Below are positions 41,359 to 51,193 of a DNA stretch of 64,000 bases, in pieces (the stretch's first letter is position 1; each line of letters opens with the position of its first letter). The position numbers and the translations under genes are program-made. The stretch is taken from assembly GCF_003605475.1 (NCBI RefSeq), contig NZ_RAHX01000001.1, forward strand, positions 496,001-560,000, written 5' to 3'. The stretch is from Aurantiacibacter aquimixticola. Lineage in GTDB: Bacteria > Pseudomonadota > Alphaproteobacteria > Sphingomonadales > Sphingomonadaceae. The notes under the pieces are model-generated. The model saw only the letters and a list, made by a program, of their open reading frames with translations. It ran no database searches and had not been told where the DNA came from.

Positions 41359-42333
41359 ATGGAAAAACTATACAACCGCTTGGGTCTCGCCTCCGCTTCA
41401 GCGCTTGTGTCATTGATAGCGCTCCCCGCCGCCGCACAGAGCGTCGAGGCCGGGACGATCATCGAGAACACCGCGCGGGCGACTTATACTACCGATGACG
41501 GCGCAGCGACGGTAACTTCCAACACTGTCGAACTCGCCGTGGACGAGTTGCTCGATGTGACGTTGACGTCCCTCGACGGCGCTCCGATTGGAGCGACGCC
41601 GGGCAGCGCCACGCTGACATTCGATTTGACCAATACGGGCAATGGCCCGGAAGCCTTTCGTCTGACGGCAAACCCTTCGGTGGCAGGCAACGACTTCGAC
41701 ACCGTCGTGGATTTCATCGCGGTCGATCGGAACGGCAATGGCGTTTACGACGATGGCATCGATCAAATCCTGACGGGCCCGGAAACGACACAGATTCTGG
41801 CGCAGGATGAGTCTCTCACCGTCTTCGTCGTCGTCGATGTGCCGAATACGGTAACCGACGGCCAGCAAAGCGATGTCGAGCTTCGTGCGGATGCCGTGAC
41901 CGGCACCGGCACACCGGGCACTGTGTTTGCAGGCCAGGGAGTCGACGGAGTCGATGCGGTCACGGGCAATACCAGCGCCGCGGCAACGGCCTTGGGCTCG
42001 CTCATTGCGGGCATAACCACCGTCGAACTCGTGAAGAGCCAGTCCGTCGCCGATCCGTTCGGTGGATCCACCGTCGTTCCTGGATCGACGATCACATACA
42101 CGATTACGGCAACGGTATCGGGCAGCGGCACGGTCAGCGATCTGGCGATTACCGACGCGTTTCCCGCTGGCACGACCTACTCTCCCAGTACGATCACGCT
42201 CGAAGGCGCCCCGTTGACCGATACGGCGGGCGATGACGCGGGCGAAGTGACGGCGAGCGGGATTGTCGTTGAGCTCGGTACGCTTTCAGGCGGGACCACG
42301 CAGGTAACCACCTTCGATGTCGTGGTCGATTAA
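41359..42333 (+). CDS. Exported DUF11-domain protein (DUF11 locus gene 1)
   Basis: A 324-residue exported protein: signal peptide 1-26 ending AAAQ, then IIENTARATYTTDDG, the leader strand shared with genes 3 and 4. Residues ~60-215 form Ig-like beta-sandwich(es) with an EF-hand-like loop DRNGNGVYDDGID (about residue 123), probably a calcium site. Residues 219-324 are a DUF11 domain (VELVKSQSV, VPGSTITYTITATVSGSG, AFPAGTTYSPSTITL) and the protein ends right after the final strand (TTFDVVVD). No membrane anchor or sorting signal other than the signal peptide. Function unknown; likely a surface or periplasmic structural protein. Confidence 0.85.
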   Translation: MEKLYNRLGLASASALVSLIALPAAAQSVEAGTIIENTARATYTTDDGAATVTSNTVELAVDELLDVTLTSLDGAPIGATPGSATLTFDLTNTGNGPEAFRLTANPSVAGNDFDTVVDFIAVDRNGNGVYDDGIDQILTGPETTQILAQDESLTVFVVVDVPNTVTDGQQSDVELRADAVTGTGTPGTVFAGQGVDGVDAVTGNTSAAATALGSLIAGITTVELVKSQSVADPFGGSTVVPGSTITYTITATVSGSGTVSDLAITDAFPAGTTYSPSTITLEGAPLTDTAGDDAGEVTASGIVVELGTLSGGTTQVTTFDVVVD

Positions 42334-42352
42334 TTCTCAAATATTAAAAAAG

Positions 42353-42841
42353 ATGGGTCTGCAAGTCATGAACCTTTTTACGAAATTCGCATGTTGCGCT
42401 TTGCTCCTTTCCAGCGCTCCGGCAGCGATTGCACAGGATCAGCCAATCACATTGGAAGGCGACGTGAAGGCTGTCGTCGAAACAATCGACGATACCGGCG
42501 CCGTTCAGATCGAGCTGGTCGAGCCGGGCACGATTGTCCCCGGCGATCGCCTGGTCTTCGGCACCAATTATTCCAACACTGGCGGTGAGCCGGTGGAAAC
42601 CTTCGTGATGACCAATCCGCTGCCGGCACCTGTTCGTCTGGCGCCCGATGCCGATCCTGCGCTCATCGTCTCCGTGGACGGCGGCGAGAGCTTCGGTCGG
42701 CTTGCCGATCTGACGGTAGCGGCGGACGACGGCTCGTCCCGCGCTGCCGAGCATCGCGATGTAACGCATATTCGCTGGACCCTGTCCGTGGTCGAACCCG
42801 GCCAATCGGGTCGGCTCGAATATCCCGCAATCATCCGCTGA
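42353..42841 (+). CDS. Small exported DUF11-related protein (DUF11 locus gene 2)
   Basis: About 162 residues with a signal peptide ending AAIAQ. The mature part is one Ig-like domain: VQIELVEPGTIVPGDRLVFG, TNYSNTGGEPVETFVMTNPL, the VSVDGGESFGRLADLTV segment and a closing LSVVEPGQSGRLEYPAIIR. The pattern 'PGD-rlvf-NtG-p--f--tnplP' is the DUF11 core. It ends with the last strand as in genes 1, 3 and 5. ATG 42353 or 42368 are possible starts, both just before the signal peptide. Directly downstream of gene 1. Confidence 0.8.
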   Translation: MGLQVMNLFTKFACCALLLSSAPAAIAQDQPITLEGDVKAVVETIDDTGAVQIELVEPGTIVPGDRLVFGTNYSNTGGEPVETFVMTNPLPAPVRLAPDADPALIVSVDGGESFGRLADLTVAADDGSSRAAEHRDVTHIRWTLSVVEPGQSGRLEYPAIIR

Positions 42842-42909
42842 CCAGCGGCCGATAACCGCCGAGCCCTGCGGGCGGTCTGATTGCAGGGCACATTCCGAGG
42901 ACCAGAACA

Positions 42910-43959
42910 ATGAAAAGCAACAGGCAATTGCTTGGGGCGGCGAGTGCGATTGTGCTTGCTGGCCTCATAGCAACGCCGGCGATGGCTCAGGAGACCGCCG
43001 CCGGTTCCACGATTACCAACACAGTGACGGTCGACTTCCAGGTCGGCGGCGTCGCGCAGACGGCTGTCACCGATAGCGACACGTTTACGGTCGATCGCAA
43101 GATCGACGTGACCGTGGCGTCGGTCGGCGCATCACCGAACGTCTCCGCCGGGCAGACAGGCGTCGTTCGCCAGTTCACCGTTACGAACGACTCCAACGCC
43201 ACTGTCGGCTTCGCGCTTACGGCGCAGGGTGCAGCAGGCGGCGGCTACATACCGCAAAACGTCGTCATCTTTGACGATATCGATGGCGACGGCGAATATG
43301 ATGCCGGTGAAGAAATTACCTTCATCGACACGCTTGGCCAGGATGAGACCAGAAATGTCTGGGTCAAGTTCGACGTTCCGAACACGGCAACGAATGGGCA
43401 GGCGACCGACATCATCCTCGTAGCCAATGCACACGAGGCCGACACGGGTGCCATCGGCGCTGAGATCGAAGCGACCACCGGTCCGAACGATCCCGATGCG
43501 ATCGACACCGTGCTCGCCGACGGCATCGGCGTTGCCGGCGTCGACGCAGCGAATGCTGGCGATCATGCTGACAGTCACACAGTTGCGGTCAATGCGGCCG
43601 ATATGAGCGTGCAGAAATTCAGCACGGTCGTGTGGGACCCCGTCAATATGACGACCAATCCTAAAGCCATCCCGGGTGCCCGAGTGCAGTACTGCATCGC
43701 GGTCACCAACGCTTCGGGTGCGGCGACGGCCACGAACGTGGTCGTGGACGACGACCTGCCTGGTGAGGTGACGTTCTTCCCTGACGCCTACGGCACGACC
43801 GGCGATGTCATCGTCGACGGCACGCTCAGCGGTGGCCTTTGCACCGGTGGTAGCGAGGTCGACGGATACACCACGGCCGATACGAACGTGAACGAAAGCA
43901 TGTCGGATATCGCCGGCGGCCAGACACGCACGCTCTATTTCACGGTCACGATCGATTGA
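42910..43959 (+). CDS. Exported DUF11-domain protein (DUF11 locus gene 3)
   Basis: A 349-residue paralogue of gene 1. Signal peptide ends AMAQ; ITNTVTVDFQVGG follows as leader strand. A central beta region contains DIDGDGEYDAGEEI (about residue 124), an EF-hand-like Asp-rich loop at the same place as in gene 1, then DVPNTATNGQATDIILVA, which also matches gene 1 (DVPNTVTDGQQSDVELRA). The C-terminal DUF11 domain (230-349) begins DMSVQKFSTVVWDP and has two cysteines (YCIAV and GGLCTGG) absent from gene 1, perhaps a disulfide. Ends LYFTVTID. GAGG precedes the start. Confidence 0.85.
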   Translation: MKSNRQLLGAASAIVLAGLIATPAMAQETAAGSTITNTVTVDFQVGGVAQTAVTDSDTFTVDRKIDVTVASVGASPNVSAGQTGVVRQFTVTNDSNATVGFALTAQGAAGGGYIPQNVVIFDDIDGDGEYDAGEEITFIDTLGQDETRNVWVKFDVPNTATNGQATDIILVANAHEADTGAIGAEIEATTGPNDPDAIDTVLADGIGVAGVDAANAGDHADSHTVAVNAADMSVQKFSTVVWDPVNMTTNPKAIPGARVQYCIAVTNASGAATATNVVVDDDLPGEVTFFPDAYGTTGDVIVDGTLSGGLCTGGSEVDGYTTADTNVNESMSDIAGGQTRTLYFTVTID

Positions 43960-43991
43960 TCCGGGCTGGAACGGACTGACCGGATAACGAC

Positions 43992-46900
43992 ATGACCTTC
44001 ATACGGTCCTCGATGCTTCAGGCGGCAGCAGCGCTACTCATAGCGCTGCTGTCGTTTGTTGTGCTCGAAGGATCGGCCAGCGCGCAGACAATCACCAATG
44101 TGGCTGAAGCGCGCTGGGACCATGAAGGTCGTTCGTTCACCGGCCGGTCCAATCTGGTCGAATTGCGGACTGATCGCACGACATCGCGAGTCCGGACCTA
44201 TGTTCCGGGCACCGATACCCCTCTCACGTATTTCCCTTCTTTCTGCGCGGCGTCCGGCGGAACTGCCACGCCATCCGGCGGCGCCGCCGTCGGAGCAAAT
44301 GCCGTGGAAACCGGCCTCCTGGTTGCAGGACAGGATCTGCTGTTTGCGGTCGAACTGCCTGCGGCAAATCTCGATGCATCGGCCGTCGAAACTGTCGATG
44401 TCGTCCTCTCCAGTAACAGCGGGGACCGCGAGGAACTCACCGTCTACGAAACATCGGCGAATTCCGGCGTATTTATGGGCAGCATCTCGACGCGGCGGAT
44501 GCCGCCGGCCCCCGTTCGGGGCGACTGCCGTCTGAGCCTCGAAAACGGCAATGCGATCGTCATCGACGTGCTCGCGCGCGATGGAAGCTCTGTCATCCTC
44601 ACGACGACGATGGATGTGCTCGCCGATCCTTTCGGTGTCGTTTTCGATAGCGAAAGCGGACAGCCGGTAGACGGCGCGACCGTAACTCTCGTCGACGCAA
44701 TCACTGGTCAGCCAGCACGGGTTTTTGCGGCGGATGGCGTGACGCCATGGCCCTCCACCGTCATCTCCGGCGCACCAGTCACGGATGCTGCCGGAAACGT
44801 CACTCAAATGGACGCTGGCGAATTCTGGTTCCCCCTGACCAGCCTTGGCACATATCGCCTCGTGGTCACGCCTCCGGCGCCCTACACAGCGCCGTCCGCA
44901 GCGACGCCGGATCAGCTTTCACGCATAACTCGCCCGGACGGGCGCGCATTCGTGATCAGCGACGCCTCCTATGGCGACACGTTCAGGCTGGACAGCCCGA
45001 TTCCCGTTCAGGTCGATATCCCGCTCGACCGGCCGGGCGTTTCGGTTTCGCTGGTCAAGACGGCGTCGCGCGATCAGGCGCAGCCGGGCGACGTGATTTT
45101 TTATTCGCTTACCGTTCGTAATCCAGACAGCGCAGCGAAGAACGGCGTCGTCCTGACTGACGTTGCGTCCCCCTATCTGCGATTGCGCCGCGATACGATC
45201 CGCATCGATGGAGAAGAGGCAGGAGGAGACGTCATCGACATTTCCGATGACGGCCGGACGATCGCGCTTAACCTTGGCGACCTCGCCGCAGGTGCGCAGC
45301 GCCGCGTGACATATGCCATGACGGTACTACCCGATGCACCCGCAGGTCACGCCGAAAACTTTGCTTTTGCTATCGATTCCATCGGCCGCCGCGTCGAAAC
45401 CAGCGCATCGGTTGAAGTCTTGCGCGACACGATTGCGGGACGCATGACGATTATCGGCCGCGTAACAGCTGGTCCGTGCTCGCTGACCGACGATATGGAC
45501 CGCATCGGTATTCCCGGCGTGCGCGTGATGATGGAGGACGGCAGCTTCGCCATCACCGATATCGATGGTCGCTACCACTTTGACGGCGTGGTTCCGGGAA
45601 CACATGTCGTCCAGGCGTCGCGGATGACCTTGCCCGAAGGCGGCGAATTTACCGACTGCACGCGCTCGAGCCGTAGCCAGGGCAGCGCAATCACCCGGCT
45701 CGTGACCGGCCGGGGTGGCTCGCTGGCAGTCGTCGATTATCACGCAACCGTTCCGGCAGACACTCTTGGGACCCTTCGTGCCATCACGGCTCCGATTGTC
45801 ACGATAGAAGATGCCGGTTTCGAAATCATCGAAGGAGAACAAACGGATAGCACTGCAGACTTGGCCGGGACCGTTGAGGCAGTAGAGCTTCAGGATGCCG
45901 ATCGGTTCGATTGGCTCTCCTTCGGCGATGGCGAAATCGACTGGCTGGCTCCAGCCATCGATGCCAATCCCCGCGTTCCATCCATCAGGGTCGCCATCCG
46001 CCATCGCCGCGGACAGACGGTGACACTGTTCGTCGATGGTGAAGAAGTGAGCCCGCTTTCCTTCGAAGGCGTGATGCGCCCTGCCGAAGGACGCTGGGAA
46101 GTCAGCCACTGGCGCGGCATCTCCTTGGCGGGAGGACGAACCGAATTGACCGCTCACATCATGAGCGGAGCCGGCAAAGTCGTCGCGGAACTCGAACGCG
46201 AGGTATTCTTCACCACGATCCCGGCAAGAGTGGAGCTTGTGCCTGAGCAATCGGCCCTTGTCGCCGACGGGCGGACTGCACCGGTGGTCGCTGTTCGCGT
46301 GCTTGATGCCGCCGGGCGCCCCATTCGTGAAGGTGTTTCGGGGGAACTCAAAATCGGTGCACCGTACGAGAGTGCCGAGCAGGTCGCGCGCCAGCAGCTC
46401 GACCAGCTGACCCGTCGCGGACCGGCCTCGGCGCGCTGGACGGTTACCGGCGCAGACGGGATTGCCTTCATCGAGCTCGCCCCAACAATGGTAAGCGGTT
46501 CACTTAGTCTCGATTTCCGCTTCGACGACGGGGAAATCGTCCGCGAGCAGCAGCTCGAGGGTTGGATCGTGCCCGGCGATATCGAATGGACCGTAATCGG
46601 CCTTGCCGAAGGCACGATCGGTGCACGCTCGGTTGCCGACAACATGGAGCGAACCGGCAGTTTCGACAGCGACCTCGGTGACGATGCCCGCGTGGCCCTG
46701 TACGCCAAGGGCCGCATCCTCGGCCGCTACCTCGTCACCCTTGCTTACGATAGCGCTGCGCAGGAAGACGATGCTCGCCTGCTCGGCACGCTCGACCCGA
46801 ATGCATATTACACCGTTTTCGCCGATGGTTCGAGCCGGCGTTTCGATGCCGCTTCACGCGAAAAGCTCTACGTTCGCATCGAAACTGCCAGCTTCAACGC

Positions 46901-49112
46901 GCTGTATGGCGATTTTGAAACGGGCTTCGATGATACGCGCCTGCTTCGCTACCAGCGGGTTGCCACCGGTATTTCTGCAGAAGCGCGTCAGGGTCAGGTA
47001 AGCCTGCGCGCTTTCGGTGCAGAAATCGGCACGCGCTTCCGCCGTGATGAGATACAGGGGCAGGGTATCTCCGGTCCCTATACGCTTTCCAGCCGCGCGA
47101 TTATCCCGAATAGCGAGACCGTAACTCTCGAAGTCCGGGACCGCTTCCGCTCGGAAATCATCGTCGACAGCCGCACGCTGACGCGCTTTGCCGATTACGA
47201 CATCGACTTGCTTTCCGGTACGATCAGGTTTCGTGAGCCTATGTTAAGTCGCGACTTCAATCTCAATCCACAATTCATTGTAATTGCTTATGAAGTTGAT
47301 GAGCTGGGTGATGGTGAGATCAATGCAGGCATTCGTGCGGAATGGACAAGCCGGGACGGAGCCGTTCAGGTCGGCACTACGGCTGTCACCGACCGCGGGG
47401 ACGGTGCGCGGACGCTGATGGGCGGCGTCGATCTTCAAGCACAACTCGATCCAAATACCGAACTGCGCGCCGAGCTGGCAGCCAGCCAGACCGATGGCGA
47501 TACGGCAACGGGCTGGCTGATCGAGGCGCAGCATCAGACTGGCTCGCTCGACATCATCGCCTACGCTCGCGAAACAGAGGCCGATTATGGCGTCGGGCAA
47601 CAGAATGGCGTAGAACTTGGCCGCCGGAAGCTCGGCGTCGATAGCCGCGTCCGCTTCGGCGACGATCTGACGGTGCTTGCCAGCCTTTGGCAGGATGACA
47701 GCCTCGCCGACGCCGCACGTCGCCGCGCCGCGCAGGTCGAACTCGGCTACACCACGCAAGCGACGGATTTCCGTCTCGGTCTCGGCCATTTCAATGATCG
47801 CCTTCCGGACGGAACGACGAATACGTCGACCGTAATCGAGGGCGGCGTTACGCAGCGCGCCATGGATAATCGCCTCGAGCTAAGTGCCAGCACCAGCATC
47901 GCGCTGGACGATGCGGAATCAGTAGATTTGCCGGCCCGCCATCGCCTTGGCGCTCGCTATGCCATCACCGATGATGTGCGCATCGTCGGTCAATATGAAC
48001 TCGCCGATGGTGTGGATTTCACGAGTTCCTCGCTCCGCGGTGGGCTGGAATTCACACCATGGCTCGGCGGCCAATTCAATGCCAGCGTGGGCGAGCAGGA
48101 CATCTCCGAGCTCGGCACGCGCAGCTTTGCTGCCTTCGGCCTCGCGCAGACACTGCAGGTCAATGCGGAACTGAGCGTCGATGCGACCTTCGACAGCAAC
48201 TGGACGATCGACGGCGAACCGAGCGTCGCGGATGTGGTCAACACGCTCCAGCCGGTTGCCAGTGGTGGGCAGTTCGGTCCGGGCGGGAGCCTTTTTGAAG
48301 AATTCACCGCCGTTACCGCGGGCGCGGCATGGCGTCGCGAGCGCTGGAGCGCCACGGCTCGCGGCGAATATCGCGATGGCGAATTTGCCGATCGTACCGG
48401 CTTTACTGCCGGTCTTGTCCGACAATTGGGCGAAGGTCGCGTGCTTGGTTCCGGCCTGACGTGGACGCGCGCCAGCGGTGCCAATGGTACGGAAACCGAA
48501 ATTTTGGATGCGGCGCTGGCCTGGGCGCATCGCCCCGCTGACTCCGAATTCGCTTTCCTCAGCAAGGTCGAATACCGCAGCGACGAGGTGCGTAATGCCA
48601 GTGCGGGCGAAGCCGGCCCCGTCGGTCGCACTGCGCTGACGGTGGAAGGCGATGCCCGTGCCAGCCGACTTATCGGCAGCGTTTCTGCAAATTGGTCGCC
48701 GCGTGCCGAGAAAGATCGGGACAACGATGAACAGGCGATGTTCACACGTCGCAGCGAGTTCGGAGCCTTCCTGGCGGTGCGTCACAATTTCGATCGCTTC
48801 GAAGGTTTCGATCTTTCCAGCACGTCCCTCCTCACCGGCCTCGATGCGCGTATCGGCCTTGGCGAACGCTTTGAAGTGGGTGCCAGCGCGACTCTTCGCA
48901 CCGATCTCGAAGGTGGCTATACGAGCTACGCGTTTGGGCCGAATGTCGGCTTCGTGCCGGTCGAAGGCGTGCTGTTAACCGTGGGCTACAATGTTGCGGG
49001 CTTCGACGATCCGGACTTTTCTGCCATGCGCAATATCGATGAGGGTATTTTCGCTGCTGTGCGCATGAAGATCGATGCCGACACTTTCGGCTTCCTGGGG
49101 CTTGGCCGATGA
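43992..49112 (+). CDS. Giant multidomain outer-membrane protein: DUF11, SdrD B-like and Ig domains plus C-terminal barrel (DUF11 locus gene 4)
   Basis: 1706 residues. Signal peptide 1-32 ends SASAQ; ITNVAEARWDHEG repeats the leader strand of genes 1 and 3. Residues ~350-470: DUF11 (SLVKTASRDQAQPGDVIFYS). ~484-560: SdrD B-like/carboxypeptidase-regulatory domain (GIPGVRVMMEDGSFAITDID, GRYHFDGV). ~745-850: Big-type Ig domain (VLDAAGRPIREGVSG). From ~873 on, many amphipathic strands with aromatic girdles (ARVALYAKGRILGRYLVTLA) suggest a large outer-membrane barrel; ALYGDFETGF and VRDRFRS with DYDIDLLSGTIRF precede it. The end is FLGLGR rather than a terminal Phe. I infer an anchor or export channel for the other locus products; no experimental function is known to me. 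Confidence 0.85.
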   Translation: MTFIRSSMLQAAAALLIALLSFVVLEGSASAQTITNVAEARWDHEGRSFTGRSNLVELRTDRTTSRVRTYVPGTDTPLTYFPSFCAASGGTATPSGGAAVGANAVETGLLVAGQDLLFAVELPAANLDASAVETVDVVLSSNSGDREELTVYETSANSGVFMGSISTRRMPPAPVRGDCRLSLENGNAIVIDVLARDGSSVILTTTMDVLADPFGVVFDSESGQPVDGATVTLVDAITGQPARVFAADGVTPWPSTVISGAPVTDAAGNVTQMDAGEFWFPLTSLGTYRLVVTPPAPYTAPSAATPDQLSRITRPDGRAFVISDASYGDTFRLDSPIPVQVDIPLDRPGVSVSLVKTASRDQAQPGDVIFYSLTVRNPDSAAKNGVVLTDVASPYLRLRRDTIRIDGEEAGGDVIDISDDGRTIALNLGDLAAGAQRRVTYAMTVLPDAPAGHAENFAFAIDSIGRRVETSASVEVLRDTIAGRMTIIGRVTAGPCSLTDDMDRIGIPGVRVMMEDGSFAITDIDGRYHFDGVVPGTHVVQASRMTLPEGGEFTDCTRSSRSQGSAITRLVTGRGGSLAVVDYHATVPADTLGTLRAITAPIVTIEDAGFEIIEGEQTDSTADLAGTVEAVELQDADRFDWLSFGDGEIDWLAPAIDANPRVPSIRVAIRHRRGQTVTLFVDGEEVSPLSFEGVMRPAEGRWEVSHWRGISLAGGRTELTAHIMSGAGKVVAELEREVFFTTIPARVELVPEQSALVADGRTAPVVAVRVLDAAGRPIREGVSGELKIGAPYESAEQVARQQLDQLTRRGPASARWTVTGADGIAFIELAPTMVSGSLSLDFRFDDGEIVREQQLEGWIVPGDIEWTVIGLAEGTIGARSVADNMERTGSFDSDLGDDARVALYAKGRILGRYLVTLAYDSAAQEDDARLLGTLDPNAYYTVFADGSSRRFDAASREKLYVRIETASFNALYGDFETGFDDTRLLRYQRVATGISAEARQGQVSLRAFGAEIGTRFRRDEIQGQGISGPYTLSSRAIIPNSETVTLEVRDRFRSEIIVDSRTLTRFADYDIDLLSGTIRFREPMLSRDFNLNPQFIVIAYEVDELGDGEINAGIRAEWTSRDGAVQVGTTAVTDRGDGARTLMGGVDLQAQLDPNTELRAELAASQTDGDTATGWLIEAQHQTGSLDIIAYARETEADYGVGQQNGVELGRRKLGVDSRVRFGDDLTVLASLWQDDSLADAARRRAAQVELGYTTQATDFRLGLGHFNDRLPDGTTNTSTVIEGGVTQRAMDNRLELSASTSIALDDAESVDLPARHRLGARYAITDDVRIVGQYELADGVDFTSSSLRGGLEFTPWLGGQFNASVGEQDISELGTRSFAAFGLAQTLQVNAELSVDATFDSNWTIDGEPSVADVVNTLQPVASGGQFGPGGSLFEEFTAVTAGAAWRRERWSATARGEYRDGEFADRTGFTAGLVRQLGEGRVLGSGLTWTRASGANGTETEILDAALAWAHRPADSEFAFLSKVEYRSDEVRNASAGEAGPVGRTALTVEGDARASRLIGSVSANWSPRAEKDRDNDEQAMFTRRSEFGAFLAVRHNFDRFEGFDLSSTSLLTGLDARIGLGERFEVGASATLRTDLEGGYTSYAFGPNVGFVPVEGVLLTVGYNVAGFDDPDFSAMRNIDEGIFAAVRMKIDADTFGFLGLGR

Positions 49113-51193
49113 GAGCTCATCGCATCTTCGTCGCTCTGCTGGCAATCGTCGTGCTCGGACTCATGCGTCCGGATCTAGCGACCGCTCAGAGCACTGCCAC
49201 CGTTGACTGGACGACGCTTGGGGCTCCAAGCACTGGGGCGTTGCCCAACCCATCGACCGCCACCGCGAGCGATGGCACGACGACGGCAACCGTCCGCTAT
49301 TCGACCGTCGCCAACGGCACTCCGTTCGTTCCGCTGCTCGACACATTCGTCAGCTATTACGATCCCAGTTTCGGTGGCTTTGCCGGCACCCTGCTGATGA
49401 ATTTCGATAACTCCACCTACGATCCCGGTGATAAGCTGACCACTGAGATTACCCTGAATCGGTCCGTCACCGGACTGCAGTTCATCCTCACGGATATCGA
49501 CACGTCCAGTTGGGTGGATGCTGTCGAGGTATTCTACGACAATGGGGACGGCACCTGGCGCAACGTGGCCGAGACGGCTTCGTTCTATACCGCAGGAAGC
49601 GCCGCGACGCGCACCAACAACGCCACCGTGAATGGCTGGCGCGGCACTGCAAATGTGGCGGCCAGTCAGACGACGGGCAATATAGCTTTCAGTTTCGGCA
49701 CCACGCTCGTCAAGCGGGTGCGCATTGTCTATTTCAGCTACACAGGCACGGGCGATCCGGGGGGGCAGGTGTCCGGCATCAGCGACCTCACCTTCAACCG
49801 CGCTTTCGCCGATCTCTCTTTGACGAAGCTATTGCTCACGCCATCGCCGACGAACGGTAGCGCCGCGACGTTCCGCCTGACTTTGAACAATGCCGCAAGC
49901 TCCAGCCTGAGCGCGACAGGTGTCCGGGTGCGCGACACGCTTCCCGCAGGCTTTGCTTACACATCATCGACCGGCACGGGTACGTTCGATCCGGCCACCG
50001 GAATCTGGAACGTCGGCACATTGGCGCGAAACCAGAATGTGAGCATGGAGATCACGGGGACGGTGAATGCGACCTCGGGTGCAGTGCTGACCAACCGTGC
50101 GGAGGTTTCCGCCAGCGATCAGGCCGACCCAGATTCCACGCCGAACAATGGTGTCACCAGCGAAGACGATTTTGCCTCCGCAACGCTTGCAGTTGGCGGA
50201 ACGAGAGCGGCTGGCACGCCCCCAGCGCTGTTCTGTCCCAACCAGTCGATCGTGTTCGATTGGGATAACGTGAATTGGATTCGTGGTTCGCTCAACAACA
50301 CATACGCTCTGGGTAGCCTCGGCAACATTTCATTTTCGATCACCAATCAGGGCACGTTTGTGGCCAAAGCGGACTATGGCGGGGACATCCCCGGCCTATC
50401 CAGCACGATCAATGGCGGCTTGGCGGGAGGCGGTCGATCACTCGTGTACCACACCAATATGCCAGATCGCGCGAGTGAAGCCACCACTACAATCGCACTT
50501 CCGGACGTCATGCGGGGTGCACAGTTCCAAGTATTTGACATAGACTCTTCAGGTTCCTTTGCAGATCGCGTGCAAGTGGAAGGGAGATTGCAGGGCGCGA
50601 CCGTGCAGCCCGTACTTACCAACGGCTCGGCAAACTATATCGTCGGCAATGAGGCGCGGGGTGATGGCTCGTCGAGCGATACGCAGGCCAATGGCAACAT
50701 CACGGTGACGTTCTCGCAGCCTATCGATACGATTATCATTCGATATGGCAATCACGCGGCCGCTCCTGCCGATCCTGGCAATCAGGGCGTTGCACTGCAC
50801 GACATTACTTTCTGCCGACCCACAACGACCTTGACAGTCGACAAGACCAGTCGCTTGCTTAGCGATCCGGTCGATATCGGCGATACCGATTTCCATATTC
50901 CCGGTGCGATCGTGGAATACTGTCTCGTCACTTCTAACACCGGCCAATCGCGCGCGACCGATATCCGCATGAATGACGTCATCCCTCCGCAAATGACCTA
51001 CGTCCCCGGCTCTATCCGGTCTGGCGCCACTTGCTCCGGTGCGAAGACAGTTGAAGACGACGACGCGGCAGGTGCCGATGAAAGCGACCCGGTCGGCGCG
51101 CAGTTTCTTTCGAGCGGTGAAGTTCGCGCGAGTGCTGCTCAGCTATCACCCGGCGCAAGCATAGCGATCATTTTCCGGACGCAGATCAACTGA
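49109..51193 (+). CDS. Exported duplicated lectin-like/DUF11 protein (DUF11 locus gene 5)
   Basis: 694 residues, start overlapping the gene 4 stop by four bases. Signal peptide 1-27 ends ATAQ. The mature protein has two parallel halves: a jelly-roll-like sandwich (about 28-230), a DUF11 domain (232-350; LPAGFAYTSSTGTGTFDPAT), a second sandwich (365-570) and a second DUF11 domain (575-694; IPPQMTYVPGSIRSG). The halves match in LQFILTDIDTSSWVDAVEVF against AQFQVFDIDSSGSFADRVQV. Cysteines occur only in the second half. It ends IIFRTQIN, like the other locus proteins. Possibly a surface adhesin; unproven. Confidence 0.85.
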   Translation: MRAHRIFVALLAIVVLGLMRPDLATAQSTATVDWTTLGAPSTGALPNPSTATASDGTTTATVRYSTVANGTPFVPLLDTFVSYYDPSFGGFAGTLLMNFDNSTYDPGDKLTTEITLNRSVTGLQFILTDIDTSSWVDAVEVFYDNGDGTWRNVAETASFYTAGSAATRTNNATVNGWRGTANVAASQTTGNIAFSFGTTLVKRVRIVYFSYTGTGDPGGQVSGISDLTFNRAFADLSLTKLLLTPSPTNGSAATFRLTLNNAASSSLSATGVRVRDTLPAGFAYTSSTGTGTFDPATGIWNVGTLARNQNVSMEITGTVNATSGAVLTNRAEVSASDQADPDSTPNNGVTSEDDFASATLAVGGTRAAGTPPALFCPNQSIVFDWDNVNWIRGSLNNTYALGSLGNISFSITNQGTFVAKADYGGDIPGLSSTINGGLAGGGRSLVYHTNMPDRASEATTTIALPDVMRGAQFQVFDIDSSGSFADRVQVEGRLQGATVQPVLTNGSANYIVGNEARGDGSSSDTQANGNITVTFSQPIDTIIIRYGNHAAAPADPGNQGVALHDITFCRPTTTLTVDKTSRLLSDPVDIGDTDFHIPGAIVEYCLVTSNTGQSRATDIRMNDVIPPQMTYVPGSIRSGATCSGAKTVEDDDAAGADESDPVGAQFLSSGEVRASAAQLSPGASIAIIFRTQIN

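Follow-up and report, generated by a model that had tools for sequence, protein, structure and literature searches.

The 64,000-nucleotide window analysed here, i.e., the whole stretch of Aurantiacibacter aquimixticola DNA under study, contains a five-gene locus at positions 41359 to 51193, and based on comparison of the encoded sequences we propose that it probably specifies a surface fibre (pilus) built by donor-hairpin complementation of DUF11 domains, with joints that are probably covalent, gene 4 as the base, genes 1 and 3 as the shaft and gene 5 as the tip. The proteins of genes 1 and 3 start with an N-terminal two-strand hairpin similar to the closing part of a DUF11 domain, and their C-terminal DUF11 domain breaks off at the point where such a hairpin would begin. 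Each subunit would insert its hairpin into the gap of the next, giving a head-to-tail polymer in which each joint could be closed by an enzyme-free Lys-Asn bond between subunits. Such a covalent joint is probable because the Asn lies in the hairpin and the Lys and catalytic Asp lie in the truncated domain. Gene 4 is assigned as the putative base because it has the hairpin and lacks a truncated C-terminus, and gene 5 as the putative tip because it has the truncated C-terminus and lacks the hairpin. This pattern, with gene 4 as donor, genes 1 and 3 as both donor and acceptor, and gene 5 as acceptor, suggests a polar fibre with base, shaft and tip. The barrel of gene 4 would anchor the fibre in the outer membrane and could plausibly serve as its exit pore, gene 5 would carry exchangeable adhesive N-terminal domains, and gene 2 may cap hairpins reversibly.

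The five co-directional open reading frames (ORFs) lie on the + strand at 41359..42333 (gene 1), 42317..42841 (gene 2), 42910..43959 (gene 3), 43992..49112 (gene 4) and 49109..51193 (gene 5). Genes 2 and 3 are separated by 68 bases and genes 3 and 4 by 32 bases, and genes 4 and 5 overlap by four bases; as the longest ORF, gene 2 overlaps gene 1, and its start is more probably an internal ATG near 42353 or 42368. Matches above the cut-offs of both Pfam DUF11 and NCBIfam TIGR01451 were found in genes 1, 3, 4 and 5, and a DUF11 search of the window's genome placed all 5 of its matches within this locus. The first-pass annotation of this DNA had described five co-directional genes with a four-base overlap of the last two, which the ORF coordinates confirm, and a signal peptide on each, in agreement with the signal-peptide-like N-terminal stretch that we recognised by eye in all five ORFs. 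It had also pointed to a shared leader or DUF11 core; this stands for the leader in genes 1, 3 and 4 and for DUF11 in genes 1, 3, 4 and 5, but the likeness of the leader to the missing C-terminal piece had been overlooked. Overall, the earlier observation is confirmed and its interpretation partly supported.

Gene 1 encodes a predicted exported shaft-type subunit of 324 aa (DUF11 26 bits), composed of a donor leader hairpin (residues 29-64 with Asn37, 41443..41550; strands also seen in the AlphaFold2 (AF2) model), an Ig-like middle domain and an acceptor, i.e., a C-terminal DUF11 without its last hairpin (Lys226 and Asp266, 42001..42330). Gene 3, a paralogue of gene 1 at a conserved position, would be the second shaft-type subunit (349 aa; DUF11 25.5 bits), with its donor hairpin at residues 29-65 (Asn37, 42994..43104) and its truncated C-terminal acceptor at 43582..43956 (Lys236, Asp281). 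The putative base protein of gene 4 (1706 aa; ORF and Pfam) contains a donor hairpin (residues 32-63 with Asn36, 44085..44180), prealbumin-like domains, a complete DUF11 domain that served as the reference model of a join test described below (Lys356, Asp390 and Asn456, 45030..45443), a CarboxypepD_reg/SdrD_B-like domain at about residues 489-590 (Pfam; 45456..45761), a weak Big_1-like match and a predicted giant barrel. Gene 5 encodes the tip-type protein of 694 aa (DUF11 96.7 bits), in which a variable N-terminal part and a complete internal DUF11 are followed by a truncated C-terminal acceptor (Lys579, Asp623, 50810..51190).

Genes 1 to 4 recur as a module. The module survey comprised 144 distinct gene 4-like ORFs from fetched loci (>500 bits and >1400 aa), and loci of the window's family were counted only where at least 2.9 kb were available upstream (n = 123; nine more were too short). 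The order gene 1-gene 2-gene 3-gene 4 was present in 119 of these 123 loci, the exceptions being L100, L077 and L189, which have extra or split pieces, and L109, a diverged 1520-aa gene 4 paralogue with none of genes 1-3 upstream. Recurrence of the gene order in >100 distinct loci is far from chance. Among 199 family genomes, the gene 1 profile matched 66, of which 64 strongly (weak in G111 and G165), and gene 4 matched 73 (E<=0.001), of which 64 remained as strong after the nine weak or partial ones (G100, G111, G141, G157, G161, G165, G168, G206 and G246) were set aside; the strong gene 1 and strong gene 4 matches make up identical sets of 64 genomes. The earlier suggestion of one functional unit is thus upheld for genes 1-4 by the gene order and by these identical sets, and gene 4 homologues occurring mostly apart from their partners were not what the neighbourhood survey found for genes 1-3. 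In twelve loci of distant genomes, taken from matches that we chose in the order, class and phylum samples, gene 2 and at least one gene 1/3-like gene were found upstream in 10 of 10 with room (two were too short), and in four lower-scoring distant regions (L231, L234, L235, L236) none of genes 1-3 was seen.

Some further arrangements were observed during the survey. G008, from the same genus, has two complete, diverged copies of the gene 1-4 module (L014, L016). A Novosphingobium metagenome-assembled genome has genes 1 and 3 seemingly broken into several frames beside an intact gene 4 (L189, 6990-9600), which may reflect sequencing error or decay. A diverged gene 4-like group (L108, L110 and L111, 1223-1646 aa) is first matched around gene 4 residues 868-1170, with none of genes 1-3 in the fetched flanks.

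The C-terminal ends of the acceptor proteins coincide. Gene 1 ends at the last residue of the window protein in 94 of 120 distinct orthologues, one residue later in 25 and five later in 1; for gene 3 the same residue is the last in 118 of 123, the other 5 running 2-15 residues longer. The end of gene 2 is identical in 123/123 distinct orthologues, and no residue beyond the end of the window protein was found in any of the 56 gene 5 orthologues. The window's genes 1, 3 and 5 end together in the C-terminal alignment. On the Pfam DUF11 model genes 1 and 3 stop at position 82 of 114, and the internal domain of gene 5 reaches 109; the Pfam stretch of the gene 5 acceptor ends at position 83, short of the C-terminus, and its end point was taken from the alignment with genes 1 and 3, and that of gene 2 on the DUF11 fold was assigned by eye. 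Genes 1, 2, 3 and 5 thus appear to break off at a common place in the DUF11 fold, without the last hairpin. The mature N-termini of genes 1, 3 and 4 open with an 'I-x-N-x-A/V' hairpin like those at the end of complete DUF11 domains, and in the AF2 monomer of gene 1 (mean predicted local distance difference test (pLDDT) 96) strands are present in the leader at model residues 9-20 and 23-35.

We appended leaders in silico behind truncated domains and compared the Pfam DUF11 scores. The gene 1 acceptor scored 25.5 bits alone, 29.0-31.7 with leaders and 24.5-25.6 with three controls; the gene 3 acceptor 32.7 alone, 37.0-38.8 with leaders and 32.8 and 34.3 with two controls; and the gene 5 acceptor 25.6 alone, 28.6-31.5 with leaders and 25.4 and 29.7 with two controls. 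All 9 joins with leaders gained between 3.0 and 6.2 bits, and their matches then ended at 95-105; six of the seven controls shifted the score by -1.0 to +1.6 bits. A second join test used a local model of the complete gene 4 DUF11, with acceptors of at least 80 aa, Asn-bearing leaders of at least 28 aa, the window protein counted twice (as query and as locus) and control segments from the barrel of gene 4 after residue 640; controls drawn from the whole of gene 4, including its DUF11, had been replaced because they inflated the control means. Gains of >3 bits were obtained on the gene 1 acceptor in 103/115 joins with the gene 1 leader and 98/121 with the gene 3 leader, and on the gene 3 acceptor in 95/115 and 88/124, respectively. 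The barrel controls gained as much in 45/726 (gene 1) and 34/744 (gene 3) joins, and shuffled leaders in 10-21 of 116-124 (10/121 in the gene 1 set).

The residues expected of an isopeptide bond are conserved and divided in the same way. In the DUF11 (CLIPPER) structure 9IFR the bond is formed by Lys715-Asp748-Asn806 (PMC12617251). The corresponding Lys356, Asp390 and Asn456 of the complete gene 4 domain are each kept in 121/122 orthologues, and in the other proteins the triad is divided between leader and acceptor. On the acceptor side, K226 and D266 of gene 1 are present in 100% and 99% of 120 distinct orthologues, K236 and D281 of gene 3 in 100% and 98% of 123, and K579 and D623 of gene 5 both in 55/56, the remaining one being gapped there. 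On the leader side, Asn37 is found in 95% of the gene 1 and 100% (rounded) of the gene 3 orthologues, and Asn36 of gene 4 in 119/122, where S53 and N54 are kept in 121/122. In the local-model joins the leader Asn fell on the Asn456 column in 108/115 (gene 1 leader) and 113/121 (gene 3 leader) joins to gene 1, in 98/115 and 103/124 joins to gene 3, and in 29/52, 24/54 and 12/53 joins to gene 5; every acceptor Asp fell on the Asp390 column (121/121 for gene 1, 124/124 for gene 3 and 56/56 for gene 5). A wider set of 96 acceptor proteins, composed of 56 gene 5 orthologues, 28 variants from the slot behind gene 4 and 12 unlinked proteins, contained none that extends past the common end (with a gap at this position in one orthologue), and among the 28 variants the four without Lys are the same four that lack Asp, one of them having Arg and Glu instead. 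By eye, the acceptors of the gene 3 and gene 5 families share 'DPVNG..NPK.IPGA' and those of gene 1 are of the 'DPFGG...VPG' type, perhaps representing two pairing specificities.

Several results weigh against this reading. One reversed leader raised the Pfam score of gene 5 by +4.1 bits, and reversed leaders extended the matched range to 93 (gene 1) and 102 (gene 3) without raising the score. The gene 4 leader fits worse than the others, with gains of >3 bits in 51/115 gene 1 and 52/118 gene 3 joins and its Asn on the Asn456 column in only 49/115 and 38/118, respectively. Joins to gene 5 were weak in the local model (25/52, 11/54 and 12/53, vs 2/336 for controls). Short hairpin profiles, a search type too weak alone and replaced by the join tests, placed the gene 4 hairpin best in the leader for 36/61 gene 1 and 18/62 gene 3 proteins, and in the reverse direction for only 5, 5 and 8 of 62. 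The acceptor Lys fell on the model Lys column in only 30/121 gene 1, 0/124 gene 3 and 1/56 gene 5 rows, being otherwise outside the aligned part, and therefore the Lys register rests on the family alignments. By eye, the leader Asn is absent in the distant gene 4 leaders L227 and L228 and in the distant gene 1 leader L226. Finally, many distant gene 4 relatives retrieved with L227 carry an OmpA domain, which in P0121 (relatives called Ghiorsea) and in P0175 and P0177 (Geobacter-type) separates the barrel from the N-terminal arm; because of this position ahead of the barrel, the N-terminal arm could be periplasmic.

Four other explanations were weighed. The main rival, to which we give a modest chance, keeps the same donor-hairpin joints and makes them non-covalent, the Lys, Asp and Asn being retained for reasons of fold; DUF11 domains without isopeptide bonds do exist (PMC12617251), and the leader Asn is missing from a few relatives. 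This explanation is, however, at odds with Lys and Asp that are near-invariant in genes 1, 3 and 5 and are lost together in 4/4 variants, and with the same triad being kept in 121/122 complete gene 4 domains. That the locus encodes independent, monomeric exported Ig proteins sharing a cap hairpin, with a C-terminal domain that is no more than a short form of DUF11 and a leader that packs back into the protein it belongs to or into that protein's middle domain, seems unlikely. Genes 2 and 5 have the truncated domain without a leader, gene 4 has a leader without a truncated C-terminal domain, and with complementary halves spread over co-occurring genes monomers are therefore unexpected. The AF2 monomer of gene 1 is confident throughout, including the leader (pLDDT about 97), and a closed monomer is possible; however, single-chain prediction tends to produce closed monomers for donor-strand subunits too.

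A periplasmic or trans-envelope tether, in which chains of genes 1 and 3 link the gene 4 arm to another part of the envelope, is what the OmpA position in the three checked distant relatives would favour. We nevertheless hold it to be quite improbable, as the tip-type proteins with adhesin-type domains (CshA_NR2, Ice_binding) make most sense outside the cell and Pfam gave no OmpA match in the window's own gene 4. The giant C-terminal barrel behind N-terminal Ig-like domains would also suit an exporter, and gene 4 could be read as an autotransporter or two-partner type exporter with the other genes as its cargo; this is very unlikely, since neither family is among the gene 4 Pfam matches at E<=1, and a donor hairpin on gene 4 itself would be unneeded for cargo export. 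The fibre with probably covalent joints remains the reading we favour.

Gene 4 is predicted to end in a giant outer-membrane barrel (about residues 867-1695, 46590..49076). The AF2 model of residues 645-1706 (mean pLDDT 81.8, predicted template modelling score 0.77) has 41 strands of at least 7 residues past model residue 220, and Foldseek and VIA place this C-terminal part near outer-membrane barrels. These models agree with the barrel that the first-pass annotation had expected at the end of the 1706-residue protein. We considered homology to FimD or PapC but do not claim it, because porins and receptors score alike. SprA, the type 9 translocon, appeared at Foldseek ranks 18 and 21 with template modelling scores of 0.10-0.16 and was not among the VIA matches listed. 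CarboxypepD_reg scored 40.7 bits, above its cut-off, over the whole protein with the best stretch at 500-544, and SdrD_B covered 500-562 below the Pfam cut-off. The Foldseek and VIA matches of gene 1 (integrin, complement, alpha-2-macroglobulin, RbmA) were read as generic Ig only, and sequence searches against solved structures with genes 1, 4 and 5 and the complete DUF11 domains of genes 4 and 5 gave nothing convincing, 9IFR not being among the matches listed.

Gene 2 differs from the other members. It encodes a small exported protein of 174 aa with a single truncated DUF11-like domain, without any Pfam match above cut-off (none at all to DUF11) and with TIGR01451 below threshold (14.5 bits vs a cut-off of 24); joined to the gene 1 leader, in a single join without control, it scored 18.5 bits for DUF11, which is below the cut-off. 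It has no leader and no conserved Lys or Asp: zero Lys columns reach at least 85%, and its TNP site, which by eye corresponds to the catalytic Asp, is Asn in 93%. Since it lacks both the isopeptide residues and the leader, gene 2 is probably not the ordinary surface subunit that had been suggested earlier. Because Lys, Asp and leader are lacking, our guess is that it might cap hairpins reversibly, acting as chaperone or terminator. The gene 2 family has a conserved D-V-T-H-x-R-W motif, and by eye several distant relatives have similar ones.

The position behind gene 4 is variable. Of 127 distinct gene 4 loci, 11 had no downstream room, and in the 116 counted the gene directly downstream was a gene 5 orthologue in 53, a partial gene 5-like protein in 25, another ORF in 17 and none in 21. 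Gene 5 as a fixed member, as first annotated, is contradicted by these counts and by several genomes that keep gene 5 elsewhere. The 25 partial gene 5-like proteins always share with gene 5 a stretch at the C-terminus or close to it, and two of the 17 other ORFs (L202 and L212) end like gene 5; profile comparison (A4-A5) was convincing only across the shared C-terminal acceptor. Ten non-orthologous slot proteins were scanned, revealing CshA_NR2 and SpaA_3 in L159, a beta-helix in L202, two with DUF7933, three with DUF11-type domains only and three with no match. Among nine further tip-type candidates, Ice_binding was found in L225 and P-domain in L226 and L253 (L253 with GEVED), and the rest had beta-helix, DUF11-type or nothing. 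P-domain was present in 18/34 aligned gene 5 orthologues (E<=0.01), and not in the window's own gene 5. The gene at L225:609-1817, which follows gene 4 in a distant genome (G830), encodes Ice_binding (PF11999, E 2.1e-60) joined with a DUF11-type acceptor and may specify an ice-adhesive pilus tip.

Gene 5 also occurs unlinked. Nine genomes without a gene 5-type slot gene, picked for showing an unlinked acceptor match, were checked, and eight contain a gene 5 orthologue elsewhere (652-912 bits); the ninth, G109, has two other acceptor-ending proteins. At E<=1e-10 the gene 5 profile matched 66/199 genomes, namely the 64 system-bearing genomes, in which many of the matches are gene 3, and G010 and G206, in which the matches, among those listed, cover only the internal DUF11. 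Among the matches listed, full-length gene 5, linked or not, was found in at least 40 of the 64 system-bearing genomes, and 19 more have an ORF of at least 380 aa with a match reaching at least model position 690; G172 and G088 have a short gene 5-type ORF, and G084, G096 and G233 none. G094 (C3 231704-235900), G109 and G236 contain at least 3 additional ORFs with a gene 5-type C-terminal match, as might be expected if a choice of tips were in use.

Gene 4 matches (E<=0.001), including several partial or weak ones, were found in 7/61 relatives, 73/199 family genomes, 79/296 order-sample genomes (the listed ones all within the window's own family), 11/337 class-sample genomes (outside the family, near full length only in G497) and 58/349 phylum-sample genomes. 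Aurantiacibacter luteus is among the closest named relatives of gene 4 (70% identity), and named loci come mostly from Erythrobacter, Porphyrobacter, Qipengyuania, Novosphingobium, Blastomonas, Sphingomonas etc., together with a small number of metagenome bins under other labels. With the distant L227 gene 4 as query, relatives were retrieved from Ghiorsea and Mariprofundaceae and, scoring lower, from Geobacter, Geomonas and Desulfuromonadales, frequently under the annotation 'OmpA family protein'; from these matches we infer that L227 is a zetaproteobacterium. Relatives are present in other proteobacterial classes.

In the window, the upstream flank contains, by eye, a minus-strand PDZ/M48-like peptidase gene and rib genes, and the downstream flank rodA-like and mrdA-like genes; the locus therefore stands alone. 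Promoter and terminator scans returned fewer sites than in shuffles. In agreement with the first-pass annotation, no known secretion family was found among the Pfam, NCBIfam and PHROGs matches of the locus proteins, PHROGs giving zero matches at E<=0.1.

Chaperone-usher pili (type 1, P) are alike in logic and function, not in sequence: their layout of an N-terminal donor and an incomplete C-terminal Ig domain is found at the sequence level in genes 1 and 3, but neither usher (PF00577) nor PapD-like chaperone is a Pfam match of genes 1-5 at E<=1, PapD not having been sought in the flanks or the rest of the genome. The donor here is a hairpin and there one strand, the joints here are predicted to be covalent, the base itself would supply the first donor, and the predicted gene 4 barrel has many more strands than the usher barrel, which has 24. 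The window's genome also has a separate usher match (PF00577, 48.2 bits, C1:1482622-1483185, in an 851-aa ORF), and a chaperone-usher system may coexist. SpyTag/SpyCatcher-type pairs are an isopeptide domain split in two whose parts react between molecules; they are engineered and derive from other source domains, whereas the split here would be natural and fibre-building. Sortase-dependent pili are likewise covalent fibres of Ig domains with a tip adhesin, but the bond here would be autocatalytic, and sortase PF04203 had 0 matches in the window's genome (other sortase models were not searched). In archaeal threads (Saci_0406), which are described as independent of chaperone-usher pili, donor-strand complementation is combined with a proposed inter-subunit isopeptide bond (PMC9715654). 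That bond links Asn57 to the amine of the N-terminal Asp24 two subunits away; the thread subunit has no Pfam domain, and neither an outer membrane nor a barrel is involved. DUF11/CLIPPER stalks of fibrillar adhesins share the family and the Lys-Asp-Asn signature; PMC12617251 describes their bond as intramolecular within single long polypeptides, and here the domain is split over two gene products.

No description of the locus or of split DUF11 joints was found among the papers listed by full-text searches of an open-access library, and the locus is widespread and apparently undescribed. Donor-strand filaments are already known, and the split-isopeptide reading would make a new class. Tentatively, the locus may represent a new Gram-negative pilus class in which an isopeptide domain is naturally split between subunits that crosslink themselves without sortase or classical usher/chaperone, the fibre leaving through its own barrel of roughly 36-41 strands and bearing interchangeable tips, ice-binding and CshA-type ones among them. 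If this is true, DUF11, a broad bacterial and archaeal surface domain known mainly as a stalk, would gain a role in fibre assembly, and many annotations as 'DUF11 domain-containing' or giant barrel proteins would be accounted for. The naturally split covalent joints could be used in protein engineering, and many sphingomonads and, seemingly, some Zetaproteobacteria would have a pilus system in common.

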